A DNA stretch of 57,859 nucleotides from Burkholderiaceae bacterium (GTDB lineage Bacteria > Pseudomonadota > Gammaproteobacteria > Burkholderiales > Burkholderiaceae_C): the NCBI GenBank assembly GCA_013360485.1, contig JABWBN010000003.1:1-57859 (forward strand), given 5' to 3'. Positions 15,535-26,927 of the stretch are shown in pieces (the first letter of the stretch is position 1; the number at the start of each line of letters is the position of its first letter). The translations under genes and the position numbers were made by a program. Under the pieces are notes generated by a model. That model did no database searches. It had not been told where the DNA came from and was given only the letters and a program-made list of their open reading frames with translations.

Positions 15535-15582
15535 AGGCAAAATAGTATTGCGAGGCGTGATTAACGTCAAGCGTGATTATCG

Positions 15583-15830
15583 ATGAGCCCAGTCGCCGCG
15601 CACAAGTGGGCGTTCGCGCCGCGTTTTCGCCGGCATGCCTTCGGCTGGCGCTCGCAGCCTGCCGTGCAGCGCGTTCGGCAAGCCGTGGCCGAGGTCCAGA
15701 TACTCGCGAAGAAGGACCCGGCGCTCGCCGCCGGCGGTGCGGTCCTGTTCCTCGAGAAGGTGTCACCGGCGCTCGTGCGGGTCAATAGTTCCTCCGGCGC
15801 CATCGGCACCGCGGTCAATCACGCGATCGA
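15583..15830 (+). pseudogene. 5' remnant of a conserved hypothetical gene
   Basis: HKWAFAPRFRRHAFGWRSQPAVQRVRQAVAEVQILAKKDPALAAGGAVLFLEKVSPALVRVNSSSGAIGTAVNHAI resembles the N-terminus of a conserved bacterial family; similarity-like sequence stops after NHAI. Confidence 0.5.
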
Positions 15831-16062
15831 CCGCCAAGAAGCCGATCGCCGCGTCGCTGGGAACACGAACGATCCCGAAAGCTTCATGCGACGGCCGCTG
15901 TACGGCGCGTGTCCGCCGCAGCCACACATCTCACCAGAAACGCGCTGCTCGCACGAAAACTCCGCCACAGTTAGCGTGCCGAAGCAATGTTCCTCGCCCA
16001 CGCCCAAGGCGAAGCGGAATCTGATAATCGACGCGATGGCGATATTTGCTGGTCAGTGAAGA

Positions 16063-16229
16063 TCAGGGTTTCTTCCCGACCGGGCCGAAGCCGTGGTGCT
16101 CGTTCTCGTAGTCCTCGATCCGCGTGACGAGCACGTCGCGCTCCCTCGCCTGTGCGCTGCCCTCCTCGGCCTGGAAGACACCCCGTAGGTGGCGGAAGGC
16201 GCGCTGCAGATCCTCGTCGTTGGGGACCT
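16063..16229 (-). pseudogene. 3' remnant of a probable HigA-like antitoxin
   Basis: Reverse strand reads VPNDEDLQRAFRHLRGVFQAEEGSAQARERDVLVTRIEDYENEHHGFGPVGKKP*; no start codon, abuts cassette B. Confidence 0.45.
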
Positions 16230-16230
16230 T

Positions 16231-16490
16231 TACTCCCACTCTATTGTCAACAGCCGGGCACCTCTCATAGGTAGATCTCGGTCTTCGAGGCCGTTCCGGA
16301 AGGTCGATACCGACAAAACTACCGTCGCGGTTCCCACCGGAACTGGCGCCCCGTTTCGCCGATCTTGTCCCGTCGAGCCACCCTCGCCTCTCGCCACGGA
16401 GCTCTTGGGCTCAAGCGGGACCAACTTGACGGTATCCGGTGGCAAGTCGCTCGGGTCAATGACGGTATTCCTGGAGTCGGTGACGGTATT
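16231..16490. repeat. Non-coding cassette B (related to cassette A)
   Basis: Left ~100 nt aligns with cassette A; right side has tgacggta repeats at 16427, 16460 and 16481, with further copies at 16566 and 16619. Confidence 0.55.
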
Positions 16491-16661
16491 GCATCCTCTG
16501 GCCGCCCCGCCCGGCCTTCGACCTCGTCCGGGAGTATGACTCACCTCTCAAACGGGGCGGACCATTGACGGTACCAACAGCCGCCGCCGGCCGGTCCCGT
16601 CGGTATCAGCGGGCCGTGTGACGGTATGCGGGGCGGCCGTTCTCGGAGGGCCCTGCGCAAC

Positions 16662-17972
16662 TCAAGACCTTAGCGAACGGCGGAGATCGCCCCTCTCTGC
16701 TGCCGTTCGCGGTTCCGCGAACAGGCCTGGCAGTCCAGACTTGGCCGCGAGCAGCGCAGGATGCTCGCCTGTGGCCTTCCACGTCAGGCCGCAGGCAGCC
16801 ACCAGCAGCGAGCGCACCGGGGCGATGGCGGCGATCAGCTGCCGACGGATGCCCGAGGCCCGGCTCGGTGAGCGTTGAGCACGCTTGGCCGCAATGAGTT
16901 CGAGCAGCCGCGTGCGCAGTTCGGCTGCCCGGTCTTCGTCCTGGGCCAGCTCAGCCAACTCTTGCAGCAGCGGCTGGTACTGCCGCGACCAGTCGATGGC
17001 CAACACTGCGTCGTCGGCGCATTGGCGCCAGAGATCGGCGGCGCGGCGCTGGAACATGAGGATGAACTGGTCGGTGGCCGTCAGCAGGCAGTAGCGCAGG
17101 AAGCAGGCCATTTCGACGGTCCGTGCCCGCTCCTTGATGCGCTCGCTGATCGACGGTGGCCGTGTGGCCATGCGCCGGGCGTAGCGGCGCACGAGCGCAT
17201 CGTTGAGCTCGCCCAGGTATCGATCCAGGCCCAGGCCGTTGAGGAAGGTGATGCGCTCGAGCACTTCGGCGATCTGGCGCGTGGAGTGCTTGGCCGGCGC
17301 GCTCCACAGCCAGCTCTGGCAGTGCTGGCCGTCCGGCCGGGTGGCAGCCACAGCAGCGGCCCACTGCTTCAAGGCAGTGGCCGACACCGTGGCCCGGATG
17401 AACGCGGCCGTGGCGGCCTCGAGGTCGGCCGGTGCGGCCGCCACCAGCGCCCGGATGGCGCGCTCGTGCACGATGATCAGCCTGTGCTCGTACAACCAGT
17501 GCCGGGCCCGCAGCAGCAGCCGCTCGCGGTCGGCGGTGTGGGCCACCTCGTCGCGCAAAATGCGCACCAGTGCGCGGCGCTGGTGTTCGCTCATCCAGGC
17601 AAAGCCCAGGACCTCGCAGGCCTGCTGCTGGTGATCGAACAAGGTCCGGCCGCGCGAATACAACGCCCGCAGCGATGCCAGATCGGGCGTGGCGATGTCC
17701 AGCGTCTGGCCCAGGTGCCGCAGCAAAGCAACCGGCACGGCGCGAACGCTGTTCAAAGGCCGCCCGCTCATGCGCACGAAACCGATGTGCAGCGCCAGGC
17801 CCAGCTTGTGGTGGTCGCCCCTGCGCCGTTCGATCAGCTCCCGCTCGGCGAGGCTGAAGGTGAAGAAGGCCTGCAGCTCGAACGGGCTGAACTCACGCGG
17901 CAGCTCACGCAGGCCCAGGTACGGTGGGTGCCAGCCCTGCATCGCCGCCGCTCCCCACGAGTCGAAAGGCAA
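16662..17972 (-). mobile_element. Tn3-family transposase N-terminal fragment (truncated)
   Basis: 436 aa with LREFSPFELQAFFTFSLAERELIERRRGDHHKLGLALHIGFVRMSGRPLN-type DUF4158/Tn3 TnpA N-terminus; lacks the DDE catalytic half. Confidence 0.8.
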
Positions 17973-18084
17973 CCAAAGATACGCCCAGCTGAACCGAACA
18001 GCAAACGCCGCGAAATCAATGACTTACCGCTGAGCACCCGCGCAGTTGCTGGCGATCCGAACCGTCACCTTTTGCACCGAAGTC

Positions 18085-18246
18085 AAGGGGACCCCGCATC
18101 GGTCGGCCGGGCTCGATCAGGATGTGCCGGATGCCGTGGCCCTGCGCTCAGCCGATGAACGCTCGGCTGGTGAACTCCGGGCCGTTGTCGGGGCGCACGG
18201 ATCGGCCACGGTCAGGCACTTCAAGCGCCGGCCGCTGCCGGCCCAT
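18085..18246 (-). mobile_element. IS3-family OrfB remnant
   Basis: Reverse strand: RRLKCLTVAD then, in another frame, RPDNGPEFTSRAFIG*AQGHGIRHILIEPGRPM, hallmark IS3 OrfB integrase-core peptides. Confidence 0.7.
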
Positions 18247-18353
18247 TGATTGCGGAGCCCCGCATGAGATTCTCAAAGTCTACCCGATTGAGATGCCATG
18301 TCGTCTACGTCATAACTCGGTCGCGATTCAGCCCGTCATTCCTGGCGTCGTTC

Positions 18354-19793
18354 TCAGTAGACACCCTGGGCGCGCATCGCGTCGGCCACCTTCACGAATC
18401 CAGCGATGTTGGCGCCATCGACGTAGTTGATCGAACCGTCAGAGCGCTTGCCGTGGCGAACGCAGTTGTTGTGGATGTCCTTCATGATGGCGTGCAACCG
18501 CTCGTCGACCTCGCCGGCGGACCATGACAGACGCAGTGCGTTCTGCGACATCTCCAGCCCCGAAGTGGCCACGCCGCCTGCGTTGCTGGCCTTGCCAGGT
18601 GCGTACAACGTGCGGGCCTTCAGGAAGACATCCACGGCTTGCAGCGTGCAGGGCATGTTGGCGCCTTCGGCCACACAGAACGCGCCGTTGGCCACCAGGG
18701 TGGCCGCGTCGAGTTCGTCGAGCTCGTTCTGCGTTGCGCAGGGCAGCGCGATGTCGGTGGGCACGTGCCAGGGCCGCTTGCCGGCCTCGAAGTGCAGGCC
18801 GAACTGAGCCGCAAACGCCGACAGGCGTCCGCGCTTGACGTTCTTCAGCTGCATCAGCGCCTGGAGCTTCTCGGTGTCGATGCCATCACGGTCGACGACG
18901 GTGCCATCGGAATCGGAGAAGGTAATCACGCGCGCGCCCAGCTCGATGGCCTTCTCGGCAGCGTACTGCGCCACGTTGCCCGACCCCGAGATCGAGACCC
19001 GCAGGCCGTCGAAGTTGCGATGGGCGCGGCGCAGCATCTCCTGCGCGAAATACACCGTGCCATAGCCGGTAGCCTCGGGTCGCATCAGGCTGCCCCCGAA
19101 CGCGATGCCCTTGCCGGTGAACACGCCGCCGGTGTCGTTCGACAGCTTTTTCATCGCACCGGCCATGAAGCCCACCTCGCGTGCACCGACGCCGATGTCG
19201 CCCGCGGGCACATCGGTGTTGGGGCCCAGGTGGCGGTAAAGCTCGCTCATCAACGCCTGGCAGAAGCGCATCACTTCGGCGTCGCTCTTGCCCTTGGGGT
19301 CAAAGTCGGAACCACCCTTGGCGCCACCCATCGGCAGCGTGGTCAGCGAGTTCTTCAGCGTCTGCTCGAACGCGAGGAACTTCAGGATCGACAGTGTCAC
19401 CGATGGATGAAACCGCATGCCGCCCTTGTAGGGGCCGATGGCCGAGCTGTGCTGGATGCGGAAGGCGCGGTTCACCTGGGTCTGGCCCCGGTCGTCGAGC
19501 CAGGCCACGCGGAACTGGATCACCCGTTCGGGCTCGACGAGACGCTCGAGCAGGGCGTACTCGCCGTACTGCGGGTGGGTTTCGATGAATGGCCACAAGC
19601 TGACCATCACTTCCCGGACGGCTTGCAAAAACTCGGGCTGGTGAGGGTCCCGCCGCGCCACTGCGGCCAGGAAGTCGTCGAGATGGGCGAATTTCAAAGC
19701 GGTCTTCTCCGGTCGAAAGGAATGGGCGCGCGCCCATTTGTCGGGCGCTGCACACCAACCGCGTGCCCTCTGAGATTTTAGGGGACCCGGCAT
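18354..19793 (-). CDS. gdhA: NADP-type glutamate dehydrogenase
   Basis: PYKGGMRFHPSVTLSILKFLAFEQTLKNSLTTLPMGGAKGGSDFDPKGKSDAEVMRFCQALMSELYRHLG; likely true start is TTG before KFAHLDDFL. Confidence 0.93.
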   Translation of the reverse strand: MPGPLKSQRARGWCAAPDKWARAHSFRPEKTALKFAHLDDFLAAVARRDPHQPEFLQAVREVMVSLWPFIETHPQYGEYALLERLVEPERVIQFRVAWLDDRGQTQVNRAFRIQHSSAIGPYKGGMRFHPSVTLSILKFLAFEQTLKNSLTTLPMGGAKGGSDFDPKGKSDAEVMRFCQALMSELYRHLGPNTDVPAGDIGVGAREVGFMAGAMKKLSNDTGGVFTGKGIAFGGSLMRPEATGYGTVYFAQEMLRRAHRNFDGLRVSISGSGNVAQYAAEKAIELGARVITFSDSDGTVVDRDGIDTEKLQALMQLKNVKRGRLSAFAAQFGLHFEAGKRPWHVPTDIALPCATQNELDELDAATLVANGAFCVAEGANMPCTLQAVDVFLKARTLYAPGKASNAGGVATSGLEMSQNALRLSWSAGEVDERLHAIMKDIHNNCVRHGKRSDGSINYVDGANIAGFVKVADAMRAQGVY

Positions 19794-20362
19794 GCACCAT
19801 CCTGCCCTGACCTTGTGGCACTGCGCAGGTGCAGTGAAGCGATTTGCCGTCGGTGCATGCCAATGCCCTAGCTAGCCCCGGAGCTTGCGGAAACACCCAT
19901 GACAAAGTGCTGGTTGGATGACCCAGCCACGAGGGAGATCTCGTCTTGAGCGGGCCTCTGATGAAACGGGCTGCAGGTCCCGCTGAGTTCGCCAAGCCGG
20001 TGCTTCACCTGTGCCCGCCCATGGTGGCGTTCGCGACCGGGCTGCCATGGGTCAGTCCATTTGGAGTGCTCATTCATTCTTCTGCAATACGCCTACGCCC
20101 CAGTGCGACATGCACTCCAAGATTTGCGTGAAGCACCCTGCGGCAATAAACTTTAGCCATGAGTTTTACCCTGTCCCTAGCCGCGTTCGGCGGTGCATTC
20201 AGCGAGGCGGCATTCTTTGCTGCCGTGTCGCTGTGCACGCCGCAGTTGCGTGCCGGGATGGGGACTCACACCCGTCAGCCGGCCGCACATCCTTAGGCCC
20301 GGCGATCACCTCCACACCAGTTGCGCAAACCTCAGATCGCCGGGCTCCCAGCCCGCGCGTAG

Positions 20363-20836
20363 ATGCGTGTCTCCGACCCGGAGGCACTCAGCTTGACACT
20401 GAAGGAACGCCCCGTGGAAGTGACCACCCTCGAGCGCACGCTCACTGAACTGGACCATGTCCGCCTCCTGAACCTGCTCCGCCGCGATGCACGCGGTGAC
20501 GGTTCACCGCATCAAGTCCGTGCCATCGAAGACGTCTTGGAGGCCTCCGCGCTCGTGCCTTCGCGCGAGGTGGCACCCGACGTCGTGACGATGTATTCGA
20601 AGGTCCTGCTGCAGGACACCCAGACCGGCCAGCGAAACACGCTGACCCTGTGTTACCCCGCGGATGCCGAGCCGGCGGTTGGATTCGTGTCTGTGCTGTC
20701 CCCGGTCGGCAGCGCTTTGCTCGGCCTGCGGGTCGGCAGCATGGCCCGCTGGTCTACCCCTGCTGGCGATGAAAGGGCGGCCGAGATTCTGGCCATCCTC
20801 TTCCAGCCCGAGTCGAGCGGCGACTACGCGATGTAG
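20363..20836 (+). CDS. Rnk-like nucleoside diphosphate kinase regulator (GreA/GreB C-terminal domain)
   Basis: LTELDHVRLLNLL..APDVVTMYSKVLLQD..LTLCYPADAEP..VSVLSPVGSALLGLRVGS..ILFQPESSGDYAM; true start may be an internal GTG near 20411. Confidence 0.8.
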   Translation: MRVSDPEALSLTLKERPVEVTTLERTLTELDHVRLLNLLRRDARGDGSPHQVRAIEDVLEASALVPSREVAPDVVTMYSKVLLQDTQTGQRNTLTLCYPADAEPAVGFVSVLSPVGSALLGLRVGSMARWSTPAGDERAAEILAILFQPESSGDYAM

Positions 20837-20979
20837 CCGCCGCGTGCAGTCTGGCGGCTGCACACCACGATCGTGGCGACGGCGGGCCTGAACTCCACCT
20901 CCGGGGCGATGCACATCGCTCCGTAGGCACACGCTCGTCTGCCGCCTGTCGGAACACGACTGTTCTCGAGGAGACACAG

Positions 20980-22026
20980 ATGACGTCATTCAAATCCATT
21001 CTGGCGGCAACCGATTTTTCGGTTGACGGAAACAATGCAGTGCGCCGCGCGGCGCTGTTGGCGCATGAGCACGGAGCCCGCCTTCACATCCTGCACGTTC
21101 TGAATGCGGCAGGCTGCAAGCCGCTGCGCGACTGGTTCTCACCGACCTTGGACTTCGACCTCAAGGCCGCACAGGCGCGCGACGCGCTCCGGCGCCTGTC
21201 CGTCGAGATATCGGGTGCCTACGACTTGACCGCCAGTGTCGAGGTCATCGTCGGCGACACGTTCGAGACGCTGATGCAGGCGTCGGAGCATGTCGACCTG
21301 GTGGTGCTCGGACGACGGGGTCACGGCCGCTTCAAGGGATTGCTCGTCGGCAGAACCGTCGATCGCATGCTCCGAATCGGCGGGCGTCCTGTCCTCGTCG
21401 TCAAGACATCGGTGCATGGGACCTATCGGCGTGTCCTGGTACCCATCGACTTCACGGCCTCGTCGGATGCGGCGATTCGCGTCGCTGGCCGGATGCGCCG
21501 CGAGGAAGGCATGCATGTGTTCCACGCCATCAACTCCAAGCGAGAGGCCGTGCTGCGCGATGCCGATGTTCCCGAGCACGTCATCAGGGAGTCGCGCCTG
21601 ATGGAAGAAGGCGCGGTCAACGCTCGCATGCGTCGCAAGGTCTCCAGACTCGGCCTGGACGGCGCGTCCATGAACTATGCGCTGGCGTACGGCCACCCGG
21701 TGCGATCGACCCTGCGTCACGCCCACAGGCTCGGTGCCGACCTCATCGTCACCGGGAAACAGGGTCGTTCAACCTTGGGCAACTTCCTTCTCGGCAGCGT
21801 CAGCAGCCGCGTCCTGTCCGAGGCGTCTTGCGACATGTTGATCGTGCCGCGGCCGCTGGACAGTTCTCCGCCGGAGGCTGCGAAAGCGGTTGCGGCTCGA
21901 CGGAACTCGGAGCGCTACATCGACAACGCGGCCCTTGCCCAGAGCGCGGCAGCGCATGCCGGGGCCTTGACTCATGACCATTGGATCCACAACAAGGCTC
22001 GATTCGTGTCGCGGAGATCGTCATGA
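20980..22026 (+). CDS. Universal stress protein, tandem UspA domains
   Basis: SFKSILAATDFS and YRRVLVPIDFT starts; nucleotide-binding motifs LGRRGHGRFKGLLVGR and TGKQGRSTLGNFLLGSVSSRVL. Confidence 0.9.
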   Translation: MTSFKSILAATDFSVDGNNAVRRAALLAHEHGARLHILHVLNAAGCKPLRDWFSPTLDFDLKAAQARDALRRLSVEISGAYDLTASVEVIVGDTFETLMQASEHVDLVVLGRRGHGRFKGLLVGRTVDRMLRIGGRPVLVVKTSVHGTYRRVLVPIDFTASSDAAIRVAGRMRREEGMHVFHAINSKREAVLRDADVPEHVIRESRLMEEGAVNARMRRKVSRLGLDGASMNYALAYGHPVRSTLRHAHRLGADLIVTGKQGRSTLGNFLLGSVSSRVLSEASCDMLIVPRPLDSSPPEAAKAVAARRNSERYIDNAALAQSAAAHAGALTHDHWIHNKARFVSRRSS

Positions 22027-22316
22027 GGCTGATGCAAATGCCGTGGACCGCGCTGTTGGACATGCAGCCGCAGAGGAGTCACCAGATCGCATGGTTCGTC
22101 TACGGATGGGTCGAGCGCGAACACGTCCTGAACGTGACCGCCTGTGCGGATTGGTGGATGCGAGCGCTTGGGCTATCGACGGCTCAGGTTAAGGCCTCTC
22201 CGCAGGGTACTCGGAACACTGGTGCGCAGGCCGAGCCCCAGGTGATGGTCCACGACAGTGGCCGAGCCGAAACCCATCGCCGCGGATCTCGGCGTCGACT
22301 GGAGTCGCTCCCATGA
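22023..22316 (+). CDS. Small protein of unknown function
   Basis: MRLMQMPWTALLDMQPQRSHQIAWFVYGWVEREHVLNVTACADWWMRALGL..; ATGA overlaps with both the upstream usp stop and the downstream start. Confidence 0.55.
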   Translation: MRLMQMPWTALLDMQPQRSHQIAWFVYGWVEREHVLNVTACADWWMRALGLSTAQVKASPQGTRNTGAQAEPQVMVHDSGRAETHRRGSRRRLESLP

Positions 22317-23194
22317 AAATCTCTTCAACCGCACTCAAGGCAAAGCGCTCCTGTGCAAGCGGCTACCGCTGGTTCGCCCGGCGATTCAAGAGTCCGGCCG
22401 AGTACCAGAGCGTGATCGACGCACTCGTCGCCGACGGACGCGTCGACGACGCCTGCTGGCTGCTTGAGCAGTTCGGCCCCATCAAGTCCGTTCTCGTGGT
22501 CGATGCCATTTCTGCGCATGCCTTCGTCTATGCGGGATCGGTCCAGGTGCGTGGCGAGGTGGATGTCGACGCCATGCTTCGCACGGGGGGCTCGTTGAAA
22601 GCAGGCGGCAGCATTCGCGCCGGCAATGCGATCTGGATCGGCAACGATCTGCACGCCGGTGCTGGCCTGCGCACACTCGGATCGTTGCGCACCGGCGGCG
22701 ACCTGGTCTCGTCCTGGAGCGTCGAGGTGCACGGCGCCCTGACGTGCGGCGGCGACCTGCGGGTCCGCGGAGCCTTGGCCTGTGGGGCGGCGATGCGTGG
22801 CGAGGGTTCGACCGTGGTGGCCGAGGACCTCGAGGTCAACGGCATGATCCATTGCGAAAAGAGCCTGCAGGTCGGCGGCGATCTGGTTTGCACGGAAGGT
22901 CTGCGCGCCGGGCACGGGATCCAGGTCGGCCAGTCGATTCGCACCGGCATGCACATCGACGCCGGCTGGGGCATCGTTGCCGGATCGGACATCACGGGCG
23001 AGGGTGCCATCCGGGCCGGCGAGTGCATCGTGAGCGGCGGCAGCGTCCGGGCGGGCGCCGGCTTCAGCCTCTACGCCGGGCTGAGTGTCCGCCGCGATGC
23101 ATGGCCCTCGTGTGGGCGTGTGGTGTCGCGGACGCGCCCCGAGAATCTGCTCAGCGGCTTCTGGGACCGCGTTCCTTGCGGAGCATCTGCATGA
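22313..23194 (+). CDS. Hexapeptide-repeat beta-solenoid (bactofilin/LbH-like) protein
   Basis: About 30 uninterrupted six-residue repeats with hydrophobic position 2 (SLKAGG SIRAGN AIWIGN DLHAGA ...). Confidence 0.75.
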   Translation: MKISSTALKAKRSCASGYRWFARRFKSPAEYQSVIDALVADGRVDDACWLLEQFGPIKSVLVVDAISAHAFVYAGSVQVRGEVDVDAMLRTGGSLKAGGSIRAGNAIWIGNDLHAGAGLRTLGSLRTGGDLVSSWSVEVHGALTCGGDLRVRGALACGAAMRGEGSTVVAEDLEVNGMIHCEKSLQVGGDLVCTEGLRAGHGIQVGQSIRTGMHIDAGWGIVAGSDITGEGAIRAGECIVSGGSVRAGAGFSLYAGLSVRRDAWPSCGRVVSRTRPENLLSGFWDRVPCGASA

Positions 23195-24108
23195 TCGCCC
23201 CGTTCGGACCCATCCTCGTGGCGACCGATTTCTCCGGGCATGCCCGCCATGCCGCCGCGAGGGCGGCGCGCCTGGCACACGACACCCATTCGGCGCTGAC
23301 ACTGATGCACGTTCTGCCTGCGCAGCCGGTGACGAAGGTCCGCAAATGGCTGGGTGCCTCGAGTGCGCGTGAGCGGAAGGTGTGCGACGAAGCGCGCCGG
23401 CAACTGTGCCAGCTCGCCTCGGAACTTACCAGCGTGCGGCGCGTCGAGTTCGACATCGAGGCTGCTGCCGGCTCCGCCCCGGACGAGATCGTGCGGGCGG
23501 CCGATCGCGTGGATGCGCGGCTGTTGGTCTTGGGTGCACGCGGCGCCGGATTCCTGCGTCGCCTGGTGCTGGGCACCACCTCGCAGCGCCTGGTGCGCCG
23601 CACGGACCGACCCCTGCTGGTCGTGCGGCAGACGGCGGCTCGGTCGTACCGGCGCGTGCTGGTGGCGGTCGACTTCTCACCTCGGTCGCGCCATGCCTTG
23701 AACCTCGCGCAGCGCGTTGCGCCAAACGCGAAGCTCGTGATCCTGACGGTGTTCGAGGTGCCGTTCGAGGGGAAGATTCGCTTTGCCGGCGTCGATGACG
23801 CGACGTTCGAGATCTATCGCAAGCGAGCGCGCGCGGAAGCGCTGCGACAGCTGCACGCACTGGCCCACGAGGCCGGTCTCTCGCCCTCGCAGTGGGAGCC
23901 CTCTGTGGTGGAGGGGGACGCTTCACGACGCATCGTCGAGCAGGAACAGTCACGCAACTGCGACTTGGTCGTGCTGACCCCGCACGGTCAATCGGCCGCC
24001 GCGGACCTGCTGCTCGGCAGCGTGACCAGGCACGTGCTCGTCGAGGGCCATGTCGACGTGCTCTTGTCCACACGAATGCCTGGTCAGCCCATCCGCCCAT
24101 GGGAGTGA
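23191..24108 (+). CDS. Universal stress protein, tandem UspA domains
   Basis: MIAPFGPILVATDFSGHARHAAARAARLAHDTHSALTLMHVL..LGARGAGFLRRLVLGTTSQRLV..YRRVLVAVDFS..LLLGSVTRHVL. Confidence 0.88.
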   Translation: MIAPFGPILVATDFSGHARHAAARAARLAHDTHSALTLMHVLPAQPVTKVRKWLGASSARERKVCDEARRQLCQLASELTSVRRVEFDIEAAAGSAPDEIVRAADRVDARLLVLGARGAGFLRRLVLGTTSQRLVRRTDRPLLVVRQTAARSYRRVLVAVDFSPRSRHALNLAQRVAPNAKLVILTVFEVPFEGKIRFAGVDDATFEIYRKRARAEALRQLHALAHEAGLSPSQWEPSVVEGDASRRIVEQEQSRNCDLVVLTPHGQSAAADLLLGSVTRHVLVEGHVDVLLSTRMPGQPIRPWE

Positions 24109-24110
24109 AG

Positions 24111-25031
24111 ATGAACCGGCCCTTCGTTTCGCTGTGTCCCGAGATCACCCGGTCTGACGCGCTCAAGCTGATGGGCTGGCTTGAAGACGAGTGCGTGACC
24201 CGCCACCTCAGCGATTCGCGCCATGTCTCCCGGTTCATCGAGCAGGTCATTGATCGGGTTCAGTTGCCCATCCTGACCCATCTGTTCAACCAGGGCGGCC
24301 GCTTCTTCATGGTCTGCGACGAGCATGACCGGCCAGTGGGGTTCGTGCGCCTCGTCATGGCGGGACGGGTCTGCGAGATGGTCCTGGTGATCGGCGACCG
24401 CGACAACTGGGGCCGTCGGCTCGGAGCCAGCGCCATCCGGGAAGCCATGAAACGCGCCTTCTTCGAGATGCGCGCGGAGCGGCTCGTCGCCAAGGTTCAC
24501 CGGGACAACGTGCGTTCGCTGAAGGTGTTCCAGCGATCCGGATTCCTGCTCGAAAGCCAGTCCCCTGCCCTGGTGAGCTTTGCAATGACGTCGGAGCGCT
24601 ATCTCCGGCGCTTGCGCGAAAGCCCCGCAGGTCACACCGACCACATCCACATCGCCGAGACCGATCAGGCAAGGCTCAGGAATCTGATCGCGTTGGACCC
24701 GGCGTCGGCCAGCTTCGAGCTGGAGCACGAGATCGAACGCGCCATCGTCGTCGATTCCCGGCAGATGCCTCGGGATGTCGTGACGATGAACTCGCGCGCC
24801 TTGCTGCACCTGGACGACGATGCGGTGGAAGTAGCGCTGGTCTACCCGGACGACGCGGACGACGCGGACGACAGCGCCCGCAGGCTGTCGGTCTGTGCTG
24901 GGATCGGCACCGCGATCCTGGGTTACCGGGAGGGCGATGCTTTCGACTGGCGACTCCCGGACAGGACCTGCCGCATTCGGATCGGGCGGGTGCTTTACCA
25001 GCCGGAGGCTGCGGGGGACCTTCACCTGTAA
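24111..25031 (+). CDS. GNAT acetyltransferase fused to Rnk-like GreA/GreB C-terminal domain
   Basis: N-terminal GNAT (DNWGRRLGASAIREAMKRAFFEMRAERLVAKVHRDNVRSLKVFQRSGFLLE); C-terminal IAETDQARLRNLI..PRDVVTMNSRALLHL..LVYPDD..AGIGTAILGYREGD..VLYQPEAAGDLHL parallels the stand-alone Rnk at 20363. Confidence 0.82.
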   Translation: MNRPFVSLCPEITRSDALKLMGWLEDECVTRHLSDSRHVSRFIEQVIDRVQLPILTHLFNQGGRFFMVCDEHDRPVGFVRLVMAGRVCEMVLVIGDRDNWGRRLGASAIREAMKRAFFEMRAERLVAKVHRDNVRSLKVFQRSGFLLESQSPALVSFAMTSERYLRRLRESPAGHTDHIHIAETDQARLRNLIALDPASASFELEHEIERAIVVDSRQMPRDVVTMNSRALLHLDDDAVEVALVYPDDADDADDSARRLSVCAGIGTAILGYREGDAFDWRLPDRTCRIRIGRVLYQPEAAGDLHL

Positions 25032-25340: not shown

Positions 25341-26927
25341 TCACTCCCACTCGATCGTCGCCGGCGGCTTGCTGCTCACGTCGTAGGTGACCCGGTTGAT
25401 GCCGCGGACCTCGTTGATGATGCGGCCCGACACGCGCTTGAGCAGTTCGTAGGGCAGCTCGGCCCAGTCGGCCGTCATGAAGTCGCTGGTCTGCACGGCG
25501 CGCAGCGCCACCACGTAGTCGTAGGTGCGGCCGTCGCCCATCACGCCGACGCTCTTGACGGGCAGGAACACGGCGAAGGCCTGGCTGGTGAGGTCGTACC
25601 AGGTCTTGCCCGTGCGTTCGTCGACGGTTCGGCGCAGTTCTTCGATGAAGATGTGGTCGGCACGGCGCAGCAGGTCGGCATATTCGCGCTTGACCTCGCC
25701 CAGGATGCGCACGCCCAGCCCCGGGCCGGGGAACGGGTGTCGATAGACCATGTCGTGCGGAAGCCCCAGTGCCACGCCCAGCTCGCGCACCTCGTCCTTG
25801 AACAGGTCGCGCAGGGGTTCGAGCAGCTTCAGGCCGAGCGTCTCGGGCAGGCCACCGACGTTGTGGTGGCTCTTGATCGTGGTGGCCTTCTTGGTCTTGG
25901 CGCCGCCGGACTCGATCACGTCCGGGTAGATCGTGCCCTGGGCAAGCCATTTCGCACTCTGAAGTTTGCAGGCCTCGGCCTGGAACACCTCGACGAACTC
26001 TCGGCCGATGATCTTGCGCTTGGCCTCGGGGTCGGCCACGCCGGCCAGCGCCGCCATGAACTGGGTGCTGGCGTCCACATGAACCACCTTGGCATGCAGG
26101 CGTCCGGCGAACATTTCCATCACCATGGCGCCTTCGTTCAGCCGCAACAGGCCATGGTCGACGAAAACGCAGGTGAGTTGCTCGCCGATGGCACGGTGGA
26201 TGAGCGCTGCGGCCACGCTGGAGTCGACACCGCCGGACAGCCCCAGGATCACCTCGTCGCTTCCCACCTGCTCGCGGATCTTCTCGACGGCCTCGGCGAT
26301 GTGGTCGCGCATCACCCAGTCGGGACTGGCGGCGCAGATGTCGAGCACGAAACGCTCGAGCAGCGCCCTGCCCTGCAAGGTGTGCGTCACCTCGGGATGA
26401 AACTGCACGGCGTAGTAGCGGCGTGTTTCATCGGCCATGCCGGCAATCGGGCAGCTCGGTGTGCTGGCCATCAGCTTGAAGCCCGGCGGCATGGCCGTGA
26501 CCTTGTCGCCGTGGCTCATCCATACCTTCAGCATGCCGTGGCTTTCGGACGTGCGGTAGTCTTCGATGCCATCGAGCAGCCGGGTGTGGCCGTGTGCACG
26601 CACCTCGGCGTAGCCGAACTCGCGATGCGTGCTGGCCTCGACCTGCCCGCCCAGCTGCACGGTCATCGTGAACATGCCGTAGCAGATGCCCAACACGGGC
26701 ACGCCCAGCTGCCACACCACCTCGGGCGCGCGCAGCTCGTGCTCTTCGTAGGTGCTGGCATGGCTGCCTGACAGGATGACGCCCTTCGGAGCGAACTCCC
26801 GGATGAAGTCGGCGGACACGTCGTTGGGGTGGATCTCGCAGTAGACGTGCGCCTCGCGGATGCGCCGCGCGATCAGCTGCGTGACCTGCGAGCCGAAGTC
26901 CAGGATGAGGATCTTGTCGTGATTCAT
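25341..26927 (-). CDS. guaA: GMP synthase (glutamine-hydrolysing)
   Basis: [51 protein letters not shown]-terminus KPPATIEWE. Confidence 0.97.

Follow-up and report, generated by a model that had tools for sequence, protein, structure and literature searches.

A conserved 5' leader with a predicted leaderless reading frame precedes Rnk, Usp and solenoid genes in Burkholderiales

In attenuators of the trp type and in other leaders with upstream open reading frames (ORFs), a short translated ORF is followed by an RNA structure placed before the regulated gene. We know of few leaders in which the frame of the ORF and the position of its stop matter but the sequence of the peptide apparently does not. 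For both Burkholderia cenocepacia and Cupriavidus metallidurans, many leaderless transcripts have been reported (PMC4603805, PMC7563307); in B. cenocepacia, a TA-rich promoter motif immediately precedes them. These reports concern annotated genes; rnk is not mentioned in the main text of either paper, nor are leader peptides in the main text of PMC4603805. Here we describe a leader element found upstream of an operon that begins with rnk, in a stretch of 57,859 nt (the window) which is an entire contig (C252; JABWBN010000003.1) of the 4.3 Mb draft genome of a Burkholderiaceae bacterium. The leader, and not the operon, is the notable finding; we infer its mechanism from sequence comparison.

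The element (20124–20345, + strand, like all of its parts) is conserved upstream of rnk and consists of a promoter, an ORF and a hairpin. The predicted −35 box is TTGCGT (20124–20129), recognized by the enrichment of TTG 17 nt from the −10 box; the predicted −10 box is TAAACT (20147–20152), recognized by its spacing to the ATG or GTG of the leader ORF. A strict-threshold scan of the window for the sigma70 consensus gave no promoter, which emerged only by comparing many copies of the element. The predicted transcription start (20159) coincides with the A of the leader ATG. The ORF itself (20159–20296; 45 amino acids (aa), MSFTLSLAAFGGAFSEAAFFAAVSLCTPQLRAGMGTHTRQPAAHP) is defined by this ATG, its frame and the position of its stop, TAG at 20294–20296. 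It is predicted to be leaderless because a start 6–8 nt after the −10 box would fall on the ATG. The hairpin (20297–20345) adjoins the stop, lies 68 nt before rnk and is near-invariant in five relatives. Its 11-bp stem is a perfect inverted repeat, with GCCCGGCGATC as the 5' arm and GATCGCCGGGC as the 3' arm, and encloses a 27-nt C/U-rich loop. Two short motifs are possible pseudoknot partners: GCGCA in the loop (20323–20327) and GCGCG, 10 nt 3' of the stem (20355–20359), whose position is conserved. In an alignment of the region upstream of the operon in the window and in four relatives (a Pelomonas metagenome-assembled genome (MAG), L002; a further MAG, L003; Roseateles toxinivorans DSM 16998, L004; and a Rubrivivax MAG, L005), the leader stretch is more conserved than coding sequence.

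The survey covered 401 genomes of the family, belonging to 141 genera, and 183 sampled genomes from other orders of the class. At most loci carrying the solenoid gene of the operon, the leader hairpin, with compensated changes in its stem, precedes the first gene, be it Rnk, solenoid or Usp. A strict, model-free search for the hairpin pattern gave 33 copies in 30 loci; the ORF and the promoter are likewise present in these copies, which predate the covariance model. The model, built from the hairpin and its close flanks and including 13 upstream positions, matches 113 of the 401 family genomes and 58 of the 141 genera. The realigned set comprises 97 matches from 90 element loci and six solenoid loci, 95 of them non-redundant. 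As many as 95 of the 97 copies are found upstream of Rnk, Usp or solenoid-type genes (80 Rnk, nine solenoid-type and six Usp). When Rnk comes first, it stands alone (38 copies) or begins the series Rnk–Usp (35), Rnk–solenoid (4), Rnk–Usp–solenoid (1) or Rnk–Rnk (2). The two other copies have no recognized downstream family; one of them is a weak antisense match, and the other stands before a SpeD–SpeE gene.

Some loci depart from this arrangement. Two leader copies were observed at each of L111 and L115, and two divergent ones at L100; at such loci each copy precedes its own Rnk, or one precedes a solenoid gene and the other a divergent Usp gene. At L160 (G273:C1:1006751), the leader precedes a SpeD–SpeE fusion (AdoMet decarboxylase and spermidine synthase). 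The element is also carried on the plasmid records pPNAP03 of Polaromonas naphthalenivorans and SPNA7 of Variovorax paradoxus. It is rare in other families of the order: two of them have the same anatomy before Rnk, in one case with a solenoid gene further downstream, and in a third the copy before Rnk is more divergent, its ORF having 14 codons and its −10 box being unclear. The covariance model found no copy in the 183 genomes from other orders.

Cupriavidus metallidurans has the solenoid gene without the main leader element. Solenoid loci lacking the main element (L067, L068, L072, L076, L117, L102 and L214) have a hairpin of another, second type (GCCGTGCGG..CCGCACGGC and variants), and the C. 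metallidurans solenoid locus likewise carries this second type (GCCGTGCGG...). By eye, a leader ORF that ends in ..TA(L/V/M)LS(A/E)AVR.. and enters the stem is readable at several of these loci; the −10 box belonging to it is not positioned at the ATG.

The window region and 18 other element loci have no match in Rfam 15 at E ≤ 1. Literature searches, outside which most subscription papers lay, returned no account of the leader, of any rnk leader from Burkholderia, of an rnk attenuator or of Burkholderiales Rnk together with Usp. To judge from its many aligned copies, the leader is a real conserved sequence feature that Rfam 15 does not list.

The statistics of the ORF and of the promoter were obtained from these copies. 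In 84% of 95 copies, an ATG opening 20–60 codons in the frame of the stop has TAnnnT 5–9 nt upstream; the corresponding figures are 0% for the other two frames and 0.9% for random positions. The −10 box ends 6–9 nt before the leader ATG or GTG in 100 of 111 elements. Over 100 elements, TTG (T 0.62, T 0.62, G 0.66) is enriched at a spacing of exactly 17 nt to the −10 box, and so is a C before that box; these columns were not used in selecting the elements. An in-phase stop lies exactly at −3 in 86 of the 95 copies and within the stem in others, a figure that is not wholly independent of the model, since its 13 upstream positions partly include the stop; the ORF start and the promoter are independent of it. 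Readthrough of the stop codon was considered and rejected: all three stops are used, and their position shifts between −3 and the inside of the stem. The ORF usually has 30–48 codons; it either stops immediately in front of the stem or extends a few codons into the 5' arm. At L003 it has shrunk to 12 codons, with promoter spacing and stop kept, which fits a role for the frame and the stop and not for most of the peptide.

In 31 ungapped close pairs of equal length, with the last seven codons excluded, the ratio of non-synonymous to synonymous differences (pN/pS) of the leader peptide is 0.65 in frame, and 0.83 and 1.15 in the other frames; these pairs replaced a codon-position test over gapped alignments, which was uninformative. 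The peptide of the leader ORF thus measured appears to be under little constraint, and it is the frame and the position of the stop that seem to matter. The C-terminal residues nevertheless recur (P/T, A, A, H/D/L, S/P) and the stop abuts the stem, as would be expected of an attenuator with an arrest peptide, in which the C-terminal P-A-A-H-S/P would stall the ribosome at the stop upon a signal and the stalled ribosome would set the hairpin. We regard this as unlikely. The third positions of these codons are as conserved as the first two, with GCA used for 81 of 82 alanines and CAT for 55 of 56 histidines; where CAT is replaced, it alternates with GAT and CTT; and the remaining peptide is barely constrained. 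Conservation of all three positions in the last codons points to a motif in the RNA directly preceding the stop, and not to particular residues.

In the stem, 99.2% of the cells of the alignment are paired, compared with 25–45% in a slid-alignment control, and double-sided changes number 32, where shuffles average 6.7. Five of the ten stem pairs are invariant or nearly so on both sides and give little information. The GC-rich inverted repeat, just downstream of the promoter and with both arms conserved, could also be a DNA operator for a repressor or an activator, the ORF being incidental. The length of the loop, however, ranges from 23 to 45 nt among the copies, so that the spacing of the arms varies by more than 20 nt, and such variation fits RNA better than an operator of fixed phase; the arms lie about 110–140 nt downstream of the predicted start; and an operator offers no reason for the strict relation of frame and stop. 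We find an operator decidedly unlikely.

The hairpin could instead be a passive stabilizer or insulator of the mRNA, the leader ORF only keeping ribosomes on its 5' end. Its stem is stable and has no terminator tract, and the distance from its end to the next start codon (median 68 nt, interquartile range 64–73) permits independent initiation at the next gene; a Shine–Dalgarno (SD) sequence is present in 98 of 107 elements. The conserved composition of the loop (48% C and 25% T, with GCGC in 87 of 94) and the motif upstream of the stop nevertheless exceed the needs of a stabilizer, and we hold this explanation to be quite unlikely.

The reading that we prefer, with a probability of about 0.5, is that the operon belongs to a Burkholderiales Rnk/Usp/solenoid regulon controlled by a shared 5' leader gated by translation. 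A sigma70-like promoter would start the message on the A of the ATG, and a 70S ribosome would initiate on the leaderless ORF and terminate at the foot of the hairpin. While there, it would cover the 5' arm and hold the hairpin open; upon its departure, or if translation of the leader failed, the hairpin would form, and its C/U-rich, GCGC-bearing loop could pair downstream, including with the SD region. Through leaderless initiation and termination, expression of the stress genes would then follow the state of the translation apparatus and not a particular peptide. The effect could be activation or repression.

Two computed pairings bear on the last step of this scheme. The loop pairs with the GCGC-containing 3' flank better than shuffled sequences do (p = 3e-16), making a pseudoknot between them possible, and the complementarity of the loop to the SD sequence is above that of shuffled loops (p = 1e-6). 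Several observations weigh against translational gating of this kind. The pseudoknot of the loop with the downstream sequence shows no covariation, and its own flank is no better a partner than a swapped one (p = 0.45). Masking the 5' arm, in the way that a ribosome halted on the stop codon would mask it, lowers the predicted accessibility of the SD sequence slightly, from 0.42 to 0.39; since this effect is small and directed towards less access, thermodynamics gives no clear sign of a switch. The sequence after the stem is C/A-rich and has no U-tract, and the stem is therefore not an intrinsic terminator. Finally, the leader ORF at L105 runs through the stem to +90. No intrinsic terminator-like site was found on the + strand between 19700 and 25500, and the terminator that a classical transcription attenuator has between leader ORF and gene is absent.

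More tentatively, the element may represent a new class of bacterial leader, in which a leaderless, sequence-independent ORF serves only to bring a terminating ribosome up to the base of a hairpin, the whole acting as the common switch of a stress regulon. This proposed regulon would comprise rnk, usp and solenoid genes and, in one genome, a SpeD–SpeE polyamine gene. If the leader works as we infer, it would allow leaderless (70S) initiation, and termination as well, to be read out directly by genetic means in bacteria rich in leaderless mRNAs, and Rnk, the universal stress proteins and a solenoid family as yet without a name would form one regulon. The leader is compact, and it occurs in the cultured species R. 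toxinivorans, P. naphthalenivorans and V. paradoxus.

In the window, the operon lies between gdhA (18354–19793, − strand, ELFV dehydrogenase) and guaA (25341–26927, − strand, GMP synthase). A sequence-only reading of this DNA had described six same-strand ORFs between these flanks, the last five almost without intergenic space, and had identified their products as Rnk, tandem Usp, a small protein, a solenoid, tandem Usp and a GNAT::Rnk fusion. The ORFs and the flank identities bear this out, and domain matches agree with the gene identities. All six genes are on the + strand; 143 nt separate rnk from the first usp gene, and the following junctions are three 4-nt ATGA overlaps and one 2-nt gap. 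The start of rnk implied by that reading, ATG 20363, had to be corrected: this codon is absent in Roseateles and Rubrivivax and was rejected. We place the start at GTG 20414 because this GTG and its SD sequence, GAAGGA (20401–20406), are conserved, the latter being kept in the window, L002, L004 and L005.

The product of rnk (20414–20836, 140 aa) matches the GreA_GreB C-terminal domain (E = 6e-20) and NCBIfam Rnk (PRK05753; E = 2.5e-29). The last gene (24111–25031, 306 aa) encodes a GNAT domain (E = 1e-13) fused to Rnk_N/GreA_GreB (PRK05753; E = 2e-26). Both proteins exceed the Pfam cut-off for GreA_GreB but fall below the PRK05753 equivalog cut-off of 109 bits, with 101.8 bits for rnk and 92.7 bits for GNAT::Rnk; by these scores they are Rnk-like, without certified equivalog status. 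The tandem UspA proteins 1 (20980–22026, 348 aa) and 2 (23191–24108, 305 aa) each contain PF00582 twice (E = 2e-42 and 6e-48) and score 145.9 and 163.5 bits against a gathering score of 24 bits. A domain-family search with the small ORF (22023–22316, 97 aa, start ATG 22023) gave no family. Purifying selection on it is confined to the first ~54 codons (pN/pS about 0.35 versus L004 and L005); its tail looks unconstrained. No FNR box resembling TTGATN4ATCAA with two or fewer mismatches was found in 15571–21981, where a hypoxia-regulated (Lxa-like) locus would have one upstream, and nothing else specific to hypoxia was seen.

The fourth gene (22313–23194, 293 aa) encodes a beta-solenoid protein with a YdhT-like helical N-terminal domain, assigned from its AlphaFold model and from matches to FapA/Bactofilin and YdhT. 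The model (predicted local distance difference test (pLDDT) 91.5) has three or four helices followed by a long beta-solenoid. The protein is present at full length in about 35 of the 401 family genomes, with 39–89% identity, and among the sampled genomes the full-length family was seen only in Burkholderiales. FapA is matched by 17 of 34 relatives and Bactofilin by eight of 34 at E < 0.01; in 10 of 34 members, the N-terminus (~45 residues) matches YdhT. The window protein itself scores 14.6 bits against the Bactofilin gathering score of 27.9 (PF04519), and 19.7 bits, over residues 5–47, against the YdhT equivalog cut-off of 300 (NF007410). A PDB fold search gave no match at E < 0.001; PDB sequence matches of the solenoid profile to designed pentatricopeptide repeat proteins covered only ~25 residues and were set aside as chance helical matches. 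On this evidence, the protein groups with beta-solenoids of the FapA/bactofilin type and has a conserved helical N-terminus; a role in structure or assembly would be a guess. A second, shorter solenoid-like gene (about 180–280 aa) often comes after the solenoid gene, as observed at L071, L077, L114, L070, L074, L075, L100 and L101; the one tested, that of L077, had no Pfam match.

The complete operon is less widespread than its leader. In the Pelomonas MAG, all six genes occur in the same order as in the window. In R. toxinivorans the second Usp gene is missing, in L003 the leader is retained and rnk and both Usp genes have been lost, and the Rubrivivax MAG has rnk–usp–small–solenoid; the flanking genes differ in these last three (L003–L005). 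Among the genomes compared, the complete order of six genes is a trait of one lineage: the window and one Pelomonas MAG have it, and three relatives have part of it. Around the solenoid gene, the arrangements Rnk–Usp–solenoid, Rnk–Rnk–Usp–solenoid, Rnk–Rnk–Usp–Usp–solenoid and Rnk–solenoid were seen repeatedly in many genera, and Rnk–(Usp)–(solenoid) is, from these gene orders, the recurrent core.

The GNAT::Rnk fusion has a different distribution. It is found at full length in 20 of the 401 family genomes (56–81% identity), and an alignment of 21 members has a mean column identity of 80%, making it better conserved than the solenoid; its predicted structure has a pLDDT of 72. In nearly all carriers it lies at an unrelated locus, with unrelated neighbours, usually solitary and behind a different leader of its own. 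It joins the operon only in the lineage of the window, where gene order marks it as a lineage-specific addition. The leader of the solitary genes was observed as a conserved element of ~75 nt that follows a TA(G/A)AAT box and contains two inverted repeats (ATGGCC..GGCCAT and ATGAAAGGCTTTCAT), at L080, L081, L083, L085, L089, L093, L095 and L097; in the window copy its remnant is the SD sequence only.

The sequence-only reading had combined these genes into a candidate stress operon, to be refuted if they did not co-occur in other genomes. Rnk, Usp and the solenoid do co-occur across many genera, with one leader preceding whichever gene comes first, which supports a co-regulated module of the stress type; GNAT::Rnk does not, and, being unlinked and under its own leader in nearly all carriers, it is not supported as a functional partner. 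The same reading pictured a complex in which the solenoid gathers the Usp proteins and GNAT::Rnk and couples acetylation and transcription to stress. In the window and in L002 the genes adjoin one another, as they partly do in L003 and L004; yet GNAT::Rnk is unlinked in nearly all genomes that carry it, and the solenoid gene stands alone behind the leader in many genomes. A scaffolded acetylation module is unsupported because GNAT::Rnk is usually solitary elsewhere; we consider such a complex very improbable, and scaffolding and the link to acetylation are unsupported guesses. The operon is an ordinary, partly lineage-specific set of known families around an undescribed solenoid protein.

Compared with described families, the solenoid protein resembles FapA and Bactofilin in its body and Escherichia coli YdhT in its N-terminus, but it is far under the YdhT cut-off, and its full-length family is limited to the Burkholderiales samples. 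The leader resembles the Rfam rnk_leader (RF01771) in being a conserved structured RNA upstream of rnk. RF01771 has no match in the source genome, while a control search found it in E. coli; the element described here differs from it in having a leaderless ORF that abuts the stem and in standing also before usp and solenoid genes. With attenuators of the trp type and other leaders with upstream ORFs it shares a short ORF, here predicted to be translated, followed by an RNA structure before the gene. It differs from these leaders in having no terminator, no run of regulatory codons and little constraint on the peptide, and in an ORF that is predicted to begin at the 5' end of the transcript and whose stop is fixed against the stem.

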